IMG/VR virus record: IMGVR_UViG_3300043446_003656
Coordinates: 1-60,775 of that record
Length of the DNA: 60,775 bases
Source of the DNA: a virus
Strand: one strand, 5' to 3'
The notes under the pieces were generated by a model. That model did not search any database. It saw only the letters and a program-made list of their open reading frames with translations, and had not been told where the DNA came from. The position numbers were made by a program, and so were the translations under genes. How positions within the stretch are numbered: the first letter of the stretch is position 1; each line of letters begins with the position of its first letter. This document shows, one piece after another, positions 5,150 through 43,108 of this stretch.

Positions 5150-5807
5150 AAAATCTTTAATAATTAGTGGTACAGCAAGTATAGTGCCAGAAATGATATC
5201 AGTTTTAAAAAACAACAATTATCAAATTGATTTAACTTACAGGAACAAAGAAAAAATGTTGTTAAAGAAAGAATTATACGGAGAAGATGTAAATTGGATG
5301 TATTTGGATTTTGATTCTCCAGACTCAACAAATAATTTTTGTGAAAATTTAGCGTCTTATGATGTAGTAGTAATACTACCAGCGTCATCACCTGGTCGTG
5401 ATTTTTTTACAACTCCAGATTCTCAGTTGAGAATGTTCTATTCTAATTATGTTGTAAATGTAATGTTGGCTACAAAAAAAATATTAGAAAAATTATCGGA
5501 TGACGGTAAAATTATATATATATCTTCTGTTGCAGCAAATAGGCCAGTACCAGATATAAATTACGCAGTGGCAAAAGGAGTAATACAAATATTTTTTACA
5601 TCTTTATCTACCAAAGTAAGACCAAATCAAAGTGTATTTTCTCTTGCTCCAGGTTTAATTTATGATACTCAAGCGTTTTATGATAATGATCCGTCAAATT
5701 ACAACAATGACCCGTCACAACTAGCAACAAAAGAAGAAATTGCTTCTTTTTTAATTAAATCTGATGTAAATAATAACGGTAAAGTTATTAAACTTGGAAA
5801 AGATTGA
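5142..5807 (+). CDS. Short-chain dehydrogenase/reductase-like protein
   Basis: Start at ATG 5142 overlaps the oxygenase stop; an ATG at 5127 is also in frame. The protein is about 221 aa, the usual SDR size. ISGTASIVPEMI replaces the classic TGxxxGxG nucleotide loop, so cofactor binding may be atypical. YISSVAANRPVPDINYAVAKG holds the catalytic Ser and the YxxxK pair, and SLAPGLIYD is the usual strand after it. The substrate is unknown; overlap with an oxygenase gene suggests a shared modification step. Its TGA stop lies inside the -35 hexamer of the next promoter. Confidence 0.75.
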   Translation: MTKKSLIISGTASIVPEMISVLKNNNYQIDLTYRNKEKMLLKKELYGEDVNWMYLDFDSPDSTNNFCENLASYDVVVILPASSPGRDFFTTPDSQLRMFYSNYVVNVMLATKKILEKLSDDGKIIYISSVAANRPVPDINYAVAKGVIQIFFTSLSTKVRPNQSVFSLAPGLIYDTQAFYDNDPSNYNNDPSQLATKEEIASFLIKSDVNNNGKVIKLGKD

Positions 5808-5833
5808 CATTTTTTTATATTTTTTGGTATAAT
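5804..5833 (+). promoter_or_regulatory. Strong promoter for the tRNA-Trp / structured RNA unit
   Basis: TTGACA (5804-5809), an 18-nt spacer and TGGTATAAT (hexamer 5828-5833). The stop codon of the SDR gene is the TGA within the -35 box. Predicted start is about 5840, exactly where base-paired RNA begins. Confidence 0.75.
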
Positions 5834-5838
5834 ATAAA

Positions 5839-5904
5839 AGTCGGGGGAGACAGCGACTCTAAAAAACTGGTATAGTCCTGAGCAAGACTGTAAAAAACTA
5901 CTCC
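5839..5904 (+). ncRNA. Tandem small stem/pseudoknot elements in the tRNA-Trp leader
   Basis: Two units precede the tRNA. Unit 1 has stem AGTCG/CGACT (5839-5843 with 5854-5858) followed by CTAAAAAACTGG. Unit 2 has stem TATAGTC/GACTGTA (5871-5877 with 5886-5892), loop CTGAGCAA and tail AAAAACTACTCC, where loop GAG can pair with tail CTC. Unit 2 matches the leftward-strand pseudoknots at 26575-26601, 27981-28008 and 28219-28248. It ends 2 nt before the tRNA. The function is unknown. Confidence 0.5.
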
Positions 5905-5906
5905 AT

Positions 5907-5977
5907 ATGTCTCTAGTGTAAAGGTAGCACAACGGATTCCAAACCCGTTAGTCAGAGTTCAAATCTTTGGAGACGTG
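5907..5977 (+). tRNA. tRNA-Trp (CCA)
   Basis: The acceptor ATGTCTC pairs with GAGACGT (one G-T), the D stem is GTGT/GCAC, the anticodon loop is TTCCAAA and the T stem is CAGAG/CTTTG with loop TTCAAAT. The discriminator is G, as usual for Trp. The anticodon stem has one A-C mismatch next to the loop. CCA is not encoded. Confidence 0.8.
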
Positions 5978-5989
5978 CGAATACTCCAG

Positions 5990-6116: not shown

Positions 6117-6524
6117 ATGACTAATACTTTTGCATGGGATCTTTTTAATGATCCTTTTTTTATTGGCTTTCAGCCAAACATTAATTCATGGACACGTGTA
6201 ACAACACAAAACAATTATCCACCTTACAATGTAATAAAACAAGATGAAGATACATATCTTGTTGAACTTGCTTTGGCGGGATTTAATAAATCTGAAATTA
6301 ATGTAACAGTAGATAATGGCAATTTAATTGTCAAGGGTGAAAAAGAAAATAAAGATGTAGAATTCAAGCATAAAGGAATTGCTACACGTTCTTTTACACG
6401 TTCATTTGCTCTTGGAGAGTATATGGAAGTTACTGGAGCTGAATTTGAAAATGGAATGCTTTCAATTATTATTGAAAGAATTATTCCAGAAGAAAAAAAG
6501 CCAAAATCTATTGACATCAAATAA
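6117..6524 (+). CDS. Hsp20 / alpha-crystallin small heat-shock protein
   Basis: Start at ATG 6117 with AAGGAG nine bases upstream; 135 aa. The alpha-crystallin domain spans about residues 35-130: YNVIKQDEDTYLVELALAGF, INVTVDNGNLIVKGEK, then the GVL-like element NGMLSIIIER and an IDIK tail instead of the usual IxI/V anchor. It is an ATP-independent holdase that keeps unfolded proteins soluble. Cyanophages carry similar genes; here it pairs with GroES (15874-16200) as a phage chaperone set. Confidence 0.92.
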   Translation: MTNTFAWDLFNDPFFIGFQPNINSWTRVTTQNNYPPYNVIKQDEDTYLVELALAGFNKSEINVTVDNGNLIVKGEKENKDVEFKHKGIATRSFTRSFALGEYMEVTGAEFENGMLSIIIERIIPEEKKPKSIDIK

Positions 6525-7218: not shown

Positions 7219-7291
7219 TGGCCCATAGCTCAGTTGGTAGAGCGTCGAACTGTTAATTCGAATGTCCCAGGATCGAGACCTGGTGGGCCAG
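7219..7291 (+). tRNA. tRNA-Asn (GTT)
   Basis: Acceptor TGGCCCA/TGGGCCA, D stem CTC/GAG, anticodon stem TCGAA/TTCGA with loop CTGTTAA, T stem CCAGG/CCTGG, discriminator G. All helices are perfect. First of eight tRNAs in a row. Confidence 0.92.
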
Positions 7292-7292
7292 C

Positions 7293-7366
7293 GGAACAAT
7301 AGCCAAGTTGGTTAAGGCCCCGAACTCATAATTCGGTTATCGTAGGTTCAAGTCCTACTTGTTCCA
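7293..7366 (+). tRNA. tRNA-Met (CAT)
   Basis: Acceptor GGAACAA/TTGTTCC and anticodon stem CCGAA/TTCGG with loop CTCATAA. A CAT anticodon could also be a lysidine-modified tRNA-Ile2. However, a separate tRNA-Ile(TAT) follows and the acceptor lacks initiator features, so elongator Met is the simplest call. Confidence 0.88.
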
Positions 7367-7373
7367 CGAATAA

Positions 7374-7448
7374 CGGACGATATCCTAGCCTGGTTTTGGA
7401 AGTACTCTTATAAGGTATGTATCGTTGGTTCAAATCCAACTCGTCCGA
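7374..7448 (+). tRNA. tRNA-Ile (TAT)
   Basis: Acceptor CGGACGA/TCGTCCG is perfect. Anticodon loop CTTATAA sits on stem GTACT/GGTAT, which includes G-T pairs. T stem GTTGG/CCAAC. Anticodon TAT reads AUA directly, useful for an AT-rich phage; most bacteria decode AUA with lysidine-modified CAU. Confidence 0.85.
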
Positions 7449-7451
7449 CTT

Positions 7452-7527
7452 GCCTTGTTAGCTCAGTGGCCAGAGCATCCGCCTTGTAAGCGGAGGGTCA
7501 TCAGTTCGACTCTGATACGAGGCTCCA
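7452..7527 (+). tRNA. tRNA-Thr (TGT), CCA encoded
   Basis: Acceptor GCCTTGT/ACGAGGC, anticodon stem TCCGC/GCGGA with loop CTTGTAA, discriminator T. CCA follows at 7525-7527, so the 3' end appears to be encoded here, unlike in the neighbours. Confidence 0.92.
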
Positions 7528-7528
7528 T

Positions 7529-7601
7529 CTCTCTGTAGCTCAGGGGACAGAGCAGCAGGTTTCTACCCTGCGTGTCGGAGGTTCAAATCCTTCCAGGGAG
7601 G
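7529..7601 (+). tRNA. tRNA-Arg (TCT)
   Basis: Acceptor CTCTCTG/CAGGGAG (one G-T), anticodon stem GCAGG/CCTGC with loop TTTCTAC, discriminator G. It reads AGA/AGG, the dominant Arg codons in this window. Confidence 0.9.
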
Positions 7602-7605
7602 CTCT

Positions 7606-7676
7606 TCTCTTATGGTGTAATGGCAGCACAGAGGCCTTTGAAGCCTTTAGTTTTAGTTCGAGTCTAGATAAGAGAA
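7606..7676 (+). tRNA. tRNA-Gln (TTG)
   Basis: Acceptor TCTCTTA/TAAGAGA, anticodon stem GAGGC/GCCTT (one G-T) with loop CTTTGAA, discriminator A. It reads CAA. Confidence 0.88.
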
Positions 7677-7679
7677 CAG

Positions 7680-7752
7680 GTTCCTATAGCTCAGTTGGTA
7701 GAGCAGCAGACTTTTAATCTGCGGGTCGTTGGTTCGAGACCAACTGGGGACA
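7680..7752 (+). tRNA. tRNA-Lys (TTT)
   Basis: Acceptor GTTCCTA/TGGGGAC (two G-T pairs), D stem CTC/GAG, anticodon stem GCAGA/TCTGC with loop CTTTTAA, discriminator A. It reads AAA. Confidence 0.92.
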
Positions 7753-7753
7753 C

Positions 7754-7835
7754 GCCCGTATGGTGGAATAGGCAGACACAGCAGACTTAAAATTTGCCAT
7801 CGAAAGATATACCAGTTCAAGTCTGGTTACGGGTA
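7754..7835 (+). tRNA. tRNA-Leu (TAA)
   Basis: Acceptor GCCCGTA/TACGGGT, anticodon stem GCAGA/TTTGC with loop CTTAAAA, and a long variable arm as expected for class II tRNA-Leu; discriminator A. It reads TTA. Last of the array, 28 nt before the next gene. Confidence 0.88.
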
Positions 7836-7863
7836 CAATGATATAATTGTAGAAGGAGAAAAG

Positions 7864-26283: not shown

Positions 26284-26313
26284 ATTATAGCATTCGTAAA
26301 GGGATCATGTCAA
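26284..26313 (-). promoter_or_regulatory. Leftward promoter giving a leaderless mRNA
   Basis: On the minus strand TTGACA, 18-nt spacer, TGCTATAAT, then six bases to the ATG at 26277. CRP-like palindrome at 26366-26381 lies upstream. Confidence 0.7.
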
Positions 26314-26365: not shown

Positions 26366-26381
26366 TGTGATTTTTATCACA
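26366..26381. promoter_or_regulatory. CRP/GlxR-like palindrome 1
   Basis: TGTGATTTTTATCACA; both half-sites perfect. Centre is about -96 from the predicted start of the 26277 transcript. Confidence 0.65.
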
Positions 26382-26492: not shown

Positions 26493-26496
26493 TTTG

Positions 26497-26570
26497 CGAT
26501 TCGGACGGGACTTGAACCCGCAACCTCCACCGTGACAGGGTGGCGATCTAACCAATTGATCTACCGAACC
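26497..26570 (-). tRNA. tRNA-Asp (GTC)
   Basis: Minus strand: acceptor GGTTCGG/CCGAATC (one G-T), anticodon stem CCACC/GGTGG with loop CTGTCAC, T loop TTCAAGT, discriminator G. Only tRNA in the leftward block. A pseudoknot element ends four bases before it. Confidence 0.9.
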
Positions 26571-26574
26571 AAGT

Positions 26575-26601
26575 GGAGCAGTTTTACATCATGCTCAGGA
26601 T
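26575..26601 (-). ncRNA. H-type pseudoknot element A, after the DUF932 stop
   Basis: Minus strand: stem ATC/GAT closing loop CTGAGCAT, linker GTAAAAC, tail TGCTCC. Loop GAGCA pairs with tail TGCTC. It begins about 6 nt after the DUF932 stop codon and ends four bases before tRNA-Asp. Confidence 0.55.
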
Positions 26602-26607
26602 TTTTCT

Positions 26608-27639
26608 TTACGCTGTTAGCGCAAGAACTTTTTTCACAATAGAATTTTTTTCTGCTGTGATAACAGGGTCAAAGCCACTAGCGGAATAAATAAGCGATTC
26701 GCCATTTGCTTTTCGTGCTGTGCGATAATAATCTAAACGCTCAGTTAGGGCATTTACTACACCCCACGCTGTGCCTTTGATATTAGCGTTAGTTTCTGAA
26801 TTATGATAAAGGTCATCAAGCAGAACAACTTTGTTTTCCCACTTAGTAAGTGAACCTTTCTTATCATGCTCAGGCTTTGGATATAGCGTGTTGATAATCT
26901 CAGAGAATTTCTTATCTGTGACTTCACGCTGGAATAACAATTCTGCTTGCTTGCTAAATTCATCAAAGTAAGCAACAGATAGATTCAAGGCTTCACGAGC
27001 CTGTGCAATTTTGCCATCAACTGTCTGCGTATGGCGAATCTTGAAAGATTGCTTTGCAGATTTCATAGCAAAGTTAAGAGTATTTTGGCAACGAACACGA
27101 ACAGGCGTGATTGCTGCTTGAACAGCAACAGAACCATCATGGCTAGTATAAACAACTAGATATAGATTGGTTTTGTCGTTAGCACCCTTTGGGTCAAGAA
27201 CGAGAGTAGATGGAACATTCCATGTGCCAAATACAACACGACCATTTTTGAAAGACCCTGCTGAATCAACAGTGACATCAGGATTTGAATCGTGGAGATT
27301 TTCTGCGAAAGCAAATAAATCTTCATTTTGAACTTCTTTGTAGCGTGAACCTACAACAGAAAGAACATCTGTGTTGCCCGCTTCAAACGGATTGTCACGA
27401 ACAACAAGGAAAGATTCGGTTAAGAAATTGTGATTTGGTGCTAACTCAGAAACAGGCTCTAAGCGAACATTCCAATTCGAGAGATGAGCAGAATCCATAA
27501 TTTGTTTAATTGTAGGTTGCTCCTCATCTGTATTCCAAACATGATTAGCAGCAGAGTGCCAAGCAGGATTTGAGCGGGAATCAACAAGGGTGAAAGTCAC
27601 AGATTTATCTGCGATTTCTTTTGCGTGTGCAAGTGTCAT
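26608..27639 (-). CDS. DUF932 phage/plasmid-like protein
   Basis: It is 343 aa. FLVVRDNPFEAGNTDVLSVV, GSRYKEVQNEDLFAFAENL, VFGTWNVPSTL and VRVRCQNTLNFAMKSAKQSF are the conserved order of DUF932 (TIGR03299) proteins, widespread in phages and mobile elements. The biochemical function is not settled; a role in DNA replication or recombination has been suggested for relatives. Largest leftward gene, with its own promoter. Confidence 0.85.
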   Translation of the reverse strand: MTLAHAKEIADKSVTFTLVDSRSNPAWHSAANHVWNTDEEQPTIKQIMDSAHLSNWNVRLEPVSELAPNHNFLTESFLVVRDNPFEAGNTDVLSVVGSRYKEVQNEDLFAFAENLHDSNPDVTVDSAGSFKNGRVVFGTWNVPSTLVLDPKGANDKTNLYLVVYTSHDGSVAVQAAITPVRVRCQNTLNFAMKSAKQSFKIRHTQTVDGKIAQAREALNLSVAYFDEFSKQAELLFQREVTDKKFSEIINTLYPKPEHDKKGSLTKWENKVVLLDDLYHNSETNANIKGTAWGVVNALTERLDYYRTARKANGESLIYSASGFDPVITAEKNSIVKKVLALTA

Positions 27640-27666
27640 TTTTTACCTTTCTTTAGACGAACCCCA

Positions 27667-27696
27667 AGTATAACAGATTGGTTTAGCATTTGTCAA
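27667..27696 (-). promoter_or_regulatory. Leftward promoter of the DUF932 gene
   Basis: On the minus strand TTGACA, 18-nt spacer, TGTTATACT. AAAGAAAGG precedes the ATG at 27639. Confidence 0.65.
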
Positions 27697-27706
27697 TAGT
27701 ATCTCA

Positions 27707-27805
27707 CTATTTGATACGAAGAGTTTTATAAAATACCCATAAACCCACGCCTAGAATTGCTGGTGTGAGCAAAATCACAAACGGTGCTAAAAGTACAGTT
27801 TCCAT
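27707..27805 (-). CDS. Single-helix membrane peptide
   Basis: It is 32 aa, start ATG 27805 after AGGGGG. METVLLAPFVILLTPAILGV then GLWVFYKTLRIK: one membrane helix with a basic end. The leader is at most a few nucleotides. Confidence 0.55.
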   Translation of the reverse strand: METVLLAPFVILLTPAILGVGLWVFYKTLRIK

Positions 27806-27813
27806 AACCCCCT

Positions 27814-27843
27814 ATTTTATCGTAAGTCCATGGGTTTTGTCAA
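27814..27843 (-). promoter_or_regulatory. Leftward promoter
   Basis: On the minus strand TTGACA, 18-nt spacer, TAAAAT; drives the 32-aa membrane peptide. Palindrome 2 is centred about 54 bp upstream of the start. Confidence 0.6.
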
Positions 27844-27853
27844 GCTTTCTTAA

Positions 27854-27869
27854 TGTGATGTTAATCACA
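27854..27869. promoter_or_regulatory. CRP/GlxR-like palindrome 2
   Basis: TGTGATGTTAATCACA, perfect half-sites; the TGA of the left half also stops an open frame on the minus strand. Confidence 0.65.
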
Positions 27870-27980
27870 CGGGTCGGCCCGTCTCACAATATGGAATAGC
27901 GTCGTGGGCTACGAATTTAATTCCAGCTATTGCTGCACGATCTTATCGGTTATCACTCCTGGCTATTTATTTAATTGTGT

Positions 27981-28008
27981 GAAGCAGTTTTATAACTTGC
28001 TTAGGTTA
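27981..28008 (-). ncRNA. H-type pseudoknot element B
   Basis: Minus strand: stem TAAC/GTTA closing loop CTAAGCAA, linker TAAAAC, tail TGCTTC. Loop AAGCA pairs with tail TGCTT. Compared with element C both helices change with compensation. It starts seven bases after the stop of the next gene. The 27870-27980 stretch between it and palindrome 2 holds only an open frame lacking a start codon. Confidence 0.6.
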
Positions 28009-28014
28009 ATTTGT

Positions 28015-28182
28015 TTAGTAAGTTTTTACCATAGCAAAACGAGTTTGATTATTTGCTAGGCGCAACATAACACGAGTTACATTGTTACGAACAGGTGTAA
28101 ATTTTTCAATACGACCTGTTACTCCAGCATTTGATGTTGTGAATAAATCACCGATTTGGTAAGTGTATCCGCCAAGTGTCAT
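28015..28182 (-). CDS. DLFTTS-family small protein (copy 1)
   Basis: It is 55 aa, start ATG 28182 with GAAAGG. MTLGGYTYQIGDLFTTSNAG, VTGRIEKFTPV then VTRVMLRLANN. It is paralogous to 28777-28938 (YQVGDLFTTSKSKVTGTIKE), a small five-strand SH3/KOW-like pattern. Pseudoknots C and B bracket it in the leader and after the stop. Confidence 0.6.
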   Translation of the reverse strand: MTLGGYTYQIGDLFTTSNAGVTGRIEKFTPVRNNVTRVMLRLANNQTRFAMVKTY

Positions 28183-28218
28183 TTTTATTTTTGCCTTTCT
28201 ATTCGGGTTTAGTTAGGG

Positions 28219-28248
28219 TGAGCAGTTTATTATGACTTGCTCAGGTCA
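28219..28248 (-). ncRNA. H-type pseudoknot element C, leader of the DLFTTS gene
   Basis: Minus strand: stem TGAC/GTCA closing loop CTGAGCAA, linker TAATAAAC, tail TGCTCA. Loop TGAGCA pairs with tail TGCTCA over six bases. It lies 17 nt after the stop of the 28266-28691 gene and about 36 nt before the ATG at 28182. Confidence 0.6.
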
Positions 28249-28265: not shown

Positions 28266-28691
28266 TTATAGATAACGAGCAACAGCATTGTAAGTAGAAG
28301 TTGAAACTACTTCCTCATCTGTCATTTTCAGAATACGAATTGCGTTAGACAATTCCTCTTTCATCTCGTTGTATGTGTGTTGATGAAGTTGCTCAAAATC
28401 TCTCTGTGGTTCAACAGGGAAATCTGCTTCATTACAGGTTAGGTCAAAATCTACATTGAGAGTTTTGTTCCATGAGCGATAGTTGGTGCGGAAGTTCTCT
28501 GCTTTTGCTATGTTAGCAACAGCAAACTTACCTACTTCTTTGCGCCACTTCTCAACAGATTTTTGATACTTTGCTTCATTTTCAGATTGGTTTTCCCAAT
28601 CCTTTTCTAACTTAGCAAGGCGAGTTTCAAGTGCCTTGATGATTTTAGGGGTAGCGATTTTTACGCTAATTGCTTTTTGGTTTCTAGCCAT
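28266..28691 (-). CDS. Coiled-coil hypothetical protein
   Basis: Not recognised. It is 141 aa with a long charged helix (KALETRLAKLEKDWENQSEN, YQKSVEKWRKEVGK), then a helical end. AAAGGAAAC precedes ATG. Confidence 0.55.
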   Translation of the reverse strand: MARNQKAISVKIATPKIIKALETRLAKLEKDWENQSENEAKYQKSVEKWRKEVGKFAVANIAKAENFRTNYRSWNKTLNVDFDLTCNEADFPVEPQRDFEQLHQHTYNEMKEELSNAIRILKMTDEEVVSTSTYNAVARYL

Positions 28692-29019: not shown

Positions 29020-29035
29020 TGTGATTTACATCACA
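29020..29035. promoter_or_regulatory. CRP/GlxR-like palindrome 3
   Basis: TGTGATTTACATCACA; fits TGTGANNTANNTCACA exactly. It overlaps the stop codon of the 42-aa gene. Confidence 0.7.
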
Positions 29036-31763: not shown

Positions 31764-31779
31764 TGTGATTTATATCACA
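31764..31779. promoter_or_regulatory. CRP/GlxR-like palindrome 5
   Basis: TGTGATTTATATCACA, extended to AGTGTGAT/ATCACACT (8-bp arms). Best match of the ten. It overlaps the stop of 31775-31897. Confidence 0.75.
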
Positions 31780-41179: not shown

Positions 41180-43108
41180 ATGTCTGGAACTATACAAAAC
41201 CCATATGAAAATTTTATTGCACTGTCTCGTTATGCAAGATGGATTGAAAAAGAAAATCGAAGAGAAACTTGGCAAGAAACGGTAGATCGTTATTTTGATT
41301 TCATGGTTAATCATCTTAATGGGATGGGTTATTTTCCAGACAAAAAACTTGTATCTGATTTAAAAACGCAAGTATTTAATAGAAATGTGATGCCATCTAT
41401 GCGATCAGTGATGACTGCTGGACCAGCGTTAGAAAGAGATCATGTTGCAGGTTATAATTGTTCTTTTGTTCCAGTTGACAATGTAAGATCTTTTGACGAA
41501 ACAATGTATATACTTATGTGTGGTACTGGTGTAGGATTCTCTGTTGAGTATAAGTACGTTAATAAACTTCCTTCAGTCCCAGACACCTTAGAAAAAACAA
41601 CAACAGTAATTATTGTGGATGATTCTAAACAAGGTTGGGCAAAAGCGTATAGAGAATTGCTTGCCTTGTTATGGGCAGGACAAATCCCCTCAATAGATGT
41701 AAGTAAAGTTCGCCCAGCAGGAGCAAGATTAAAAACTATGGGCGGAAGATCGTCTGGCCCACAACCATTGATAAATCTTTTTGACTTTACTATAAAGATT
41801 TTTAAAAATGCTGCAGGTCGTCAACTTAAACCAATTGAAGCACATGACATAATGTGTAAGATTGGAGAAGTTGTTGTAGTCGGAGGAGTTCGTCGTTCTG
41901 CTATGATATCTCTTTCAAATATTAATGATATCGAAATGGCTCAAGCAAAAGTTGGAAATTGGTGGGAAAATAATTCACAAAGATCTCTTTCAAATAATTC
42001 CGTAGCTTACTCACGTCGTCCAGAAATGGCTCAATTTATTACAGAATGGAAAAACCTGTATGATTCAAAGTCAGGCGAACGTGGAATATACAACGTCGCA
42101 GCAGCACAAAAACAAGCATCAAGATGGGGACGTAGAGATCCAGAGATTCATTATGGAACAAACCCTTGTTCAGAAATTATACTTCGCCCATATCAATTTT
42201 GTAATCTTTCTGAAGTTGTAATTAGGCAAAATGACACAAAAGAAGATATAGCAGAAAAAGTAAAACTTGCGACAATTCTTGGAACTTGGCAATCAACACT
42301 TACAGACTTTAAATATCTTCGTAAGATTTGGAAAGACAATACAGAAGAAGAAAGACTACTTGGAGTTTCTCTTACTGGCCAATTTGGTCACAAGTTCATG
42401 TCTGGGAAAGAAAATTTAAAAGAATTAGAATCTTACTTAGAAAATCTTAGGGATTACGCCAGAGATGTAAATAAAGAAGAATCTCAAAAATTGAATATTA
42501 ATGAATCTGCAGCCATTACTTGTGTAAAACCTTCTGGTACAGTATCTCAATTAGTTGGCGTATCATCTGGAATGCATCCTTGGCATAATGATTATTATAT
42601 TCGTACTGTCCGTGGGGATAAGAAAGACCCACTATCTAAATTTTTAATGGATGCTGGGATACCTTTTGAGGATGATGTTATGAAACCAGATGCTACCACA
42701 GTATTCTCATTCCCAATGAAAGCCCCAGAAGGAGCTATATTAAGAAATGATCTTACGGCTATTGAACACTTAAATATTTGGCTTACATATCAAAGGGCTT
42801 GGTGTGAACATAAACCATCTATTACTGTTTCAGTCAAAGAAGATGAATGGATGGAAGTAGGAGCTTGGGTATGGAAGCATTTCGATGAAGTATCGGGAAT
42901 ATCTTTCTTACCTTATTCAGATCATACATATAAGCAAGCCCCATACCAAGATTGCTCTGAAGAAGAGTACCTAGAATCTTTAGCAAAAATGCCATCTGAA
43001 ATTAATTGGGACGCAATTTCACTCTATGAAACTGAAGACACAACCTCTGGGACCCAAGCTTTGGCTTGTGTGGCTGGGGAATGCGAAATTGTTGATATAA
43101 ACTCGTAG
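41180..43108 (+). CDS. nrdJ: Class II (B12-dependent) ribonucleoside-triphosphate reductase
   Basis: It is 642 aa, monomeric RTPR-like. Conserved elements: YNCSFVPVDNVRSFDETMYI, GTGVGFSVEYKYVNKLP, GGRSSGPQPL, TNPCSEIILRPYQFCNLSEV (radical/redox Cys), CVKPSGTVSQLVGVSSG and the C-terminal redox pair CVAGECEI. It makes dNTPs independently of oxygen using adenosylcobalamin. The C-terminal cysteines need thioredoxin, encoded at 14626-14922. No partner subunit is needed. Confidence 0.94.
   Translation: MSGTIQNPYENFIALSRYARWIEKENRRETWQETVDRYFDFMVNHLNGMGYFPDKKLVSDLKTQVFNRNVMPSMRSVMTAGPALERDHVAGYNCSFVPVDNVRSFDETMYILMCGTGVGFSVEYKYVNKLPSVPDTLEKTTTVIIVDDSKQGWAKAYRELLALLWAGQIPSIDVSKVRPAGARLKTMGGRSSGPQPLINLFDFTIKIFKNAAGRQLKPIEAHDIMCKIGEVVVVGGVRRSAMISLSNINDIEMAQAKVGNWWENNSQRSLSNNSVAYSRRPEMAQFITEWKNLYDSKSGERGIYNVAAAQKQASRWGRRDPEIHYGTNPCSEIILRPYQFCNLSEVVIRQNDTKEDIAEKVKLATILGTWQSTLTDFKYLRKIWKDNTEEERLLGVSLTGQFGHKFMSGKENLKELESYLENLRDYARDVNKEESQKLNINESAAITCVKPSGTVSQLVGVSSGMHPWHNDYYIRTVRGDKKDPLSKFLMDAGIPFEDDVMKPDATTVFSFPMKAPEGAILRNDLTAIEHLNIWLTYQRAWCEHKPSITVSVKEDEWMEVGAWVWKHFDEVSGISFLPYSDHTYKQAPYQDCSEEEYLESLAKMPSEINWDAISLYETEDTTSGTQALACVAGECEIVDINS

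Follow-up and report, generated by a model that had tools for sequence, protein, structure and literature searches.

What are the short structured elements that recur between the genes of this virus, and what might they do there? The window analysed here is the whole 60 775-nucleotide stretch of IMG/VR virus record IMGVR_UViG_3300043446_003656, in which the first-pass annotation had proposed a family of small H-type pseudoknot RNAs with covarying helices, three of them leftward and one rightward. The window was scanned with a covariance model trained on 59 elements from other viruses and on none from the window itself. All four elements were recovered (E = 7.8e-9 to 1.3e-4), and the next match scored E = 0.087. 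The element, about 27 nt long, is an H-type pseudoknot whose first helix (P1) has 4 bp and whose second helix (P2) has 5 bp, in the order P1, L1 (CU), P2 5′ strand, L2 (1 nt), P1 3′ strand, L3, P2 3′ strand. The P2 strands are GAGCA and UGCUC or covariants of these, and L3 is usually NNAAAC. The places given for the elements earlier were right; their boundaries are refined below, where they are listed with their neighbours.

28266..28691, minus strand: coding sequence of 141 aa without a Pfam or PHROGs match; its stop codon precedes E1
28248-28220, minus strand: element E1, E = 2.2e-6; P1 TGAC/GTCA (28248-28245 paired with 28236-28233), P2 GAGCA/TGCTC (28242-28238 paired with 28224-28220), L1 CT, L2 A, L3 TAATAAAC (8 nt)
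28015..28182, minus strand: small coding sequence of 55 aa between E1 and E2; its stop codon precedes E2
28008-27982, minus strand: element E2, E = 1.7e-8; P1 TAAC/GTTA, L3 TAAAAC
27814..27843, minus strand: promoter-like site TTGACA-18-TAAAAT after E2 (11/12, consensus match only)
26608..27639, minus strand: gene for a DUF932 protein (PF06067, phrog_1221), ending before E3
26602-26576, minus strand: element E3, E = 7.8e-9; P2 GAGCA/TGCTC, L2 T, L3 TAAAAC
26496..26570, minus strand: tRNA-Asp(GTC), directly after E3
26284..26313, minus strand: promoter-like site TTGACA-18-TATAAT after E3 and tRNA-Asp (12/12, consensus match only)
5804..5833, plus strand: promoter-like site TTGACA-18-TATAAT upstream of E4 and tRNA-Trp (12/12, consensus match only)
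5874-5903, plus strand: element E4, E = 1.3e-4; P1 AGTC/GACT, L3 of 9 nt
5907..5978, plus strand: tRNA-Trp(CCA), directly after E4

The P2 of E2 (AAGCA/TGCTT) is compensatory relative to that of E1. The P1 of E3 has only three pairs (ATC/GAT), with A.G at the outer position. E4 is the weakest of the four members: its P2 (GAGCA/TACTC) contains a C.A mismatch, while its P1 can be extended to 7 bp starting from position 5871. Three of the elements had been described as following a stop codon closely and two as ending just before a tRNA, and the measured distances agree: 17, 6 and 5 nt from stop codon to P1 for E1, E2 and E3, and 5 nt from E3 to tRNA-Asp and 3 nt from E4 to tRNA-Trp. No coding sequence stops just upstream of E4, which is preceded instead by the perfect promoter match.

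Four copies alone make a slender case for covariation, and the two helices were assessed in much larger sets. In 130 sequences chosen blind to P1, its three outer pairs are formed in 128, 124 and 107 (shuffled means of 63, 55 and 60), and each position shows all four Watson-Crick types. Since the next pair outward is at chance, P1 has exactly 4 bp; compensation in the first stem therefore stands as proposed, but the 7-bp stem of E4 is atypical. The five P2 positions are paired in 201-207 of 212 elements selected without regard to P2, with covariants including AAGCA/TGCTT, GGACA/TGTCC, GGGTA/TACCC and GGCCA/TGGCC. Here too the proposed compensation is borne out, whereas the sixth T-A pair of the suggested TGAGCA/TGCTCA helix is at chance, which leaves 5 bp. 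In the alignment 97.9% of cells are paired, double-sided changes occur in three of the four P1 pairs and four of the five P2 pairs, and sliding the partner columns by 1-3 lowers pairing to 26-40%. Because the alignment drew on pairing elements, the counts that are blind to P1 or P2 provide the fair test. A descriptor search returned 282 non-identical elements, compared with none in reversed sequence. L3 is 6 nt long in 243 of the 282, a length sufficient to span the groove of P1. The element thus has two helices, a loop that pairs with the 3′ tail and compensatory change in both helices, as an H-type pseudoknot should. The first-pass annotation had staked its claim on further instances with compensatory changes, and these large independent sets uphold it, with 112 double-sided changes against 38 in shuffled alignments. 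A recurrent sub-variant in which the tail AAAAGGCTC replaces AAACTGCTC and P2 has 4 bp (GAGC/GCTC) may form a subclass (loci L009, L019, L051, L053, L067, L071, L077, L106, L112 and L119).

We have high confidence that the RNA family itself is new. No family in Rfam 15 matches the element itself, and the motifs of a large 2017 survey are reportedly contained in that release. Searches of the open literature found no description of the element. In its geometry it nearly coincides with the minor-groove-triplex frameshift pseudoknots of the BWYV type, which have an L1 of 2 nt, an L2 of 1 nt and an A-rich L3 of about 6-7 nt; unlike these, it lies outside reading frames and has neither a slippery site nor an in-frame extension.

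The family is very widely distributed. An exact scan of IMG/VR for CCTGAGCAAN{4,12}AAACTGCTC found at least 120 viral contig stretches, and among the matches listed the loci held 141 copies. A scan of bacterial and archaeal genomes gave 94 stretches from very diverse phyla, although the copies with at most one outer P1 pair (somewhat over a quarter) are probably due to chance. Annotated phages with the element, cultured ones among them, include those of Staphylococcus (phiETA and many relatives), Lactobacillus (Lj771 and KC5a), Bacillus (Pagevirus), Anoxybacillus and Moorella, as well as the thermophilic phage D6E. It is also present in Arthrobacter, Mycobacterium, Streptomyces and Synechococcus phages, and in Roseobacter SIO1, Lentibacter, Ruegeria, Paracoccus and crAss-like phages. 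Of 20 records scanned with the covariance model, 18 matched at E <= 1.6e-5, one of them a Vibrio phage. A single genome can carry up to eight copies in 14 kb, beside unrelated genes.

The most telling clue to what the element does is its position, which is tied to the gene upstream. A co-oriented coding sequence lies directly upstream of 190 of 214 intergenic elements by simple ORF calls, and deposited annotations agree with this placement. In 96 of these 190, P1 lies 5-9 nt past the stop codon. Where the element lies between two coding sequences, it is found at most 9 nt past the stop in 46% of cases (13% if placement were uniform); the interval before the next start codon is loose, with a median of 60 nt. 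The 5-9 nt spacing equals the distance at which pseudoknots contact the ribosome in frameshift and readthrough signals. The element might accordingly be read as acting at the mRNA entry channel, where a roadblock or insulator would aid termination or recycling or, in a variant of the same idea, would keep post-termination ribosomes off tRNAs, ribozymes or the next gene; a plant-virus RNA discussed below, coremin, does block scanning ribosomes (PMC10520033). We nevertheless consider a ribosome-directed role rather unlikely, as the spacing has a long tail of 10-60 nt, the stop codon of one recurrent mini-gene (see below) falls inside P2, and such a role would not predict that tRNAs, ribozymes and U-tracts lie next to the element. 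Readthrough or frameshifting as a general role was rejected, since the stops are mostly TAA (112 of 147) and the in-frame extension is short (median of seven codons).

The features that follow the element are equally distinctive. It is present at 33 of 77 junctions leading from a coding sequence to a tRNA, at none of 69 leading from a tRNA to a coding sequence and at none of 56 between tRNAs (Fisher p = 1.6e-11 for the first against the second, in loci sampled for carrying the exact core, with related phages that are not independent and with simple ORF calls). The tRNA starts 4-12 nt after TGCTC in 35 cases, and the curated record of Arthrobacter phage Amigo has the order gp60, element, tRNA-Gly. 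In the window, a cluster of eight tRNAs (Asn, Met, Ile, Thr, Arg, Gln, Lys and Leu) occupies 7219-7836, and the covariance-model scan found no element in front of it.

Hammerhead ribozyme cores lie directly after seven elements, where about one would be expected (L125, with two in a row, L162, L168, L149, L002 and L088), and their inferred cleavage sites are about 5-11 nt past P2. At L125 two consecutive genes are built as gene, element and hammerhead, and Rfam scores one of the two ribozymes over threshold. No Rfam ribozyme model matches over the element itself, the one hammerhead match lying downstream of an element. Theta (HDV-like) ribozymes, which are self-cleaving nested double pseudoknots, also occur near phage tRNAs (PMC10879173). 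The phage element shares with them its position as a structured RNA adjoining phage tRNA genes, but is a single pseudoknot of about 27 nt in which no catalytic core was recognized.

T-runs of at least five directly follow 38 of 279 elements, compared with 0-5 in other nearby windows (about eightfold), and mostly begin 0-5 nt after P2. This enrichment would suit a new type of pseudoknotted intrinsic terminator made of P2 and a U-tract. Such a terminator is improbable as the general explanation and could hold for a subset only: the other 86% of elements, all four in the window among them, are without a U-tract, and P2, with its 5 bp and a loop of about 11 nt, makes a weak terminator hairpin.

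Convergent junctions contain the element more often than divergent ones (29 of 968 versus 11 of 1004; p = 0.0035), and convergent genes follow 36 elements; no downstream gene is therefore needed. This bears on the likeness to preQ1-I or SAM-II riboswitches that had been noted in the design. The likeness holds for topology, in that all are small H-type pseudoknots with an A-rich L3, and the strongly conserved loop letters would suit ligand binding. The riboswitch hint itself is not supported: neither the preQ1-I models nor the SAM-II model of Rfam, nor any other riboswitch model, matches the element at E <= 10, and the genomic context differs as well. Riboswitches generally form the 5′ leaders of related biosynthesis or transport genes, and the element does not. 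It has other conserved letters, lies at gene 3′ ends, anchored to the upstream stop codon and untied to downstream starts, and is present in many copies per genome beside unrelated genes. Where a tRNA, a ribozyme or a convergent gene comes next, a riboswitch would have no gene downstream to control, and the conserved P2 letters covary and so are not invariant for ligand contact. A ligand-binding role is thus very improbable.

The common factor of these placements appears to be the end of a message, past a stop codon and before recognizable 3′-end-forming features. Judged by sequence context, the elements lie at RNA 3′ ends, where a stabilizer of mRNA 3′ ends would be expected. From the observed structure and position we infer, at about even odds (a probability of roughly 0.5), that the element is a 3′-end cap that shields phage mRNA from 3′→5′ exonucleases. 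The pseudoknot would sit at the 3′ end of the message, just past the terminating ribosome, and an RNA 3′ end would be made nearby by RNase P (at the tRNA 5′ end), by hammerhead cleavage or by a terminator. Groove triplexes formed by the A-rich L3 and by the CU in L1 would lock the fold. An exonuclease such as PNPase or RNase R entering at the new 3′ end would then stall at P2, and the upstream reading frame would survive. In this way the element would substitute for a terminator hairpin or REP element in messages that owe their 3′ ends to processing, and genes adjacent on a single transcript could decay independently. REP elements and intrinsic-terminator hairpins are plain hairpins that stabilize the 3′ ends of bacterial mRNAs. 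The proposed function, guarding the 3′ end of the upstream gene in a polycistronic RNA, is common to them and the phage element, but the latter is a sequence-conserved pseudoknot found across many phage groups.

The cap reading is favoured because the element is anchored to the upstream stop and stands before tRNAs, hammerheads and U-tracts. It is also favoured because the promoter-like sites after E2 and after E3 and tRNA-Asp would, if active, start new units. E4 counts against it because a promoter-like site, and not a coding sequence, precedes this element. Also against it, no 3′-end-forming site was recognized in most cases in which the element separates two coding sequences.

A recurrent mini-gene also bears on the 3′-end cap. 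It has about 20 codons and a strong SD, encodes the peptide MKRFxxPRxAHCxEGCxxxS* and is conserved across many phyla (Aminicenantes, Omnitrophota, Desulfobacterota, Actinomycetota and others; L122, L127, L131, L133, L140, L173, L177, L183, L185, L188, L191, L193, L195, L209 and L213). Its UGA stop codon lies inside the L1/P2 part of the element, and a terminator-like hairpin often follows. The cap is favoured here because the mini-gene ends in the element, often ahead of such a hairpin. The product is perhaps a modified peptide. Decoding of the UGA as selenocysteine was rejected, as the frame past it is not conserved.

The main rival to the cap is a barrier in the opposite direction, a bacterial counterpart of the viral xrRNAs that would stop RNase J and preserve the RNA downstream. 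In phages of staphylococci, lactobacilli and Bacillus and in thermophilic phages, the portal or head-morphogenesis gene comes before the element and the scaffold-capsid genes come after it, an order that fits a 5′ barrier better because the gene needed in quantity is downstream, so that scaffold and capsid mRNA, for example, would be preserved. The hosts of element-bearing phages belong mostly to groups with RNase J, which also counts in favour of the barrier. A structural precedent is coremin, the xrRNA-C of plant RNA viruses, which resists Xrn1 and so stops a 5′→3′ enzyme in eukaryotes; it comprises hp1 with a 4-6 nt YGAD/YGNNAD loop, a spacer and a required second hairpin, hp2 (PMC10520033). 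The two RNAs have in common a stem of about 4 bp closed by C-G, a loop that begins with C and ends with A and a UUAAACU spacer (coremin GUCCGAAGACGUUAAACUAC, phage GUC-CUGAGCAA-GAC-GUUAAACUGCUC), and both occur in 3′ UTRs and between genes; the similar stem and UUAAAC spacer support the barrier. However, a loop-tail helix is not known in coremin, whereas the phage element forms one, the covarying P2 of 5 bp. The pairing of the phage loop CUGAGCAA with the tail places the element outside the coremin class, and by inspection no conserved second hairpin lies beside it. Coremin mechanically blocks its enzyme, while blocking by the phage element is a proposal.

The barrier reading is unlikely on balance. 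The element keeps its position relative to the stop codon that precedes it, and in many cases all that follows is a tRNA, a ribozyme or a convergent gene, none of which would benefit. In addition, the element is present in a Vibrio phage, and Vibrio is not known to have RNase J. Among sampled genomes the element was found in none of 369 gammaproteobacterial and 8 of 400 Bacilli genomes, by a procedure of low recall that scored about the top 20 candidates per genome. A strict correlation with RNase J hosts was rejected all the same, as the Vibrio phage has a good copy. A search for the element in E. coli with one P1 variant and a high score requirement gave no match. The gammaproteobacterial rarity counts against the 3′-end cap as well, because 3′→5′ exonucleases are common to all bacteria, although the Vibrio phage does carry a copy. 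The cap, the 5′→3′ barrier and a ribosome-directed role are not separable by sequence alone.

If the cap reading is right, for which the chances are about equal either way, the element would be a previously undescribed and very widespread device of DNA phages: a triplex-type pseudoknot of about 27 nt that acts as a directional exonuclease stop at message ends, serves as a module in phages of Firmicutes, Actinobacteria, Cyanobacteria, Alphaproteobacteria, Bacteroidetes and candidate phyla, and forms the first such class of blocking RNA in bacterial viruses. Among structured phage RNAs it would rank with the smallest and the most widespread, and it would have escaped notice in the well-studied genomes of Staphylococcus phage phiETA, Lactobacillus phages, Roseobacter phage SIO1 and Arthrobacter phage Amigo. 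It would also provide a simple rule for how phage message 3′ ends are kept intact after tRNA, ribozyme and terminator cuts. The concept of viral RNAs that block nucleases, taken from RNA viruses of eukaryotes, would then reach DNA phages as well, and a very small, transferable part would become available with which to adjust the stability of mRNA in operons.

Several further observations were made around the elements. In three clostridial loci the DUF2800 RNA, an orphan Rfam family (RF02960), begins 1-2 nt after TGCTC:

L134, 5432-5592: DUF2800 RNA after the element
L143, 2981-2824: DUF2800 RNA after the element
L179, 1849-1691: DUF2800 RNA after the element

This adjacency hints that the DUF2800 RNA too may act at message 3′ ends, and suggests that it and the phage hammerheads could belong to the same 3′-end machinery as the element.

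CRP/GlxR-like palindromes (TGTGAN6TCACA) occur in the window at 26366-26381, 27854-27869, 29020-29035, 31764-31779 and other positions, and a CRP-like palindrome lies just upstream of both leftward promoter-like sites (27814..27843 and 26284..26313). Across the locus set such palindromes are found within 200 nt downstream of 24 of 282 elements, compared with a background of 1.6%, suggesting phage promoters under the putative control of a host regulator of the CRP family.

In an Ignavibacteria CRISPR array (L198, CP054675.1; 30-nt repeat) with a cas1 gene nearby, the element occurs in at least four spacers, and a second array-bearing locus (L212) has one further such spacer. All of these spacer-borne elements, at least five in number, have the same orientation relative to the repeat. 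Their presence indicates that hosts have sampled the element from invaders. An origin of the spacers from RNA was rejected, as no reverse transcriptase was found in the L198 genome.

Elsewhere in the window, positions 6117-6524 hold an HSP20 gene, and positions 41180-43108 encode a B12-dependent ribonucleotide reductase related to Streptomyces phage enzymes.
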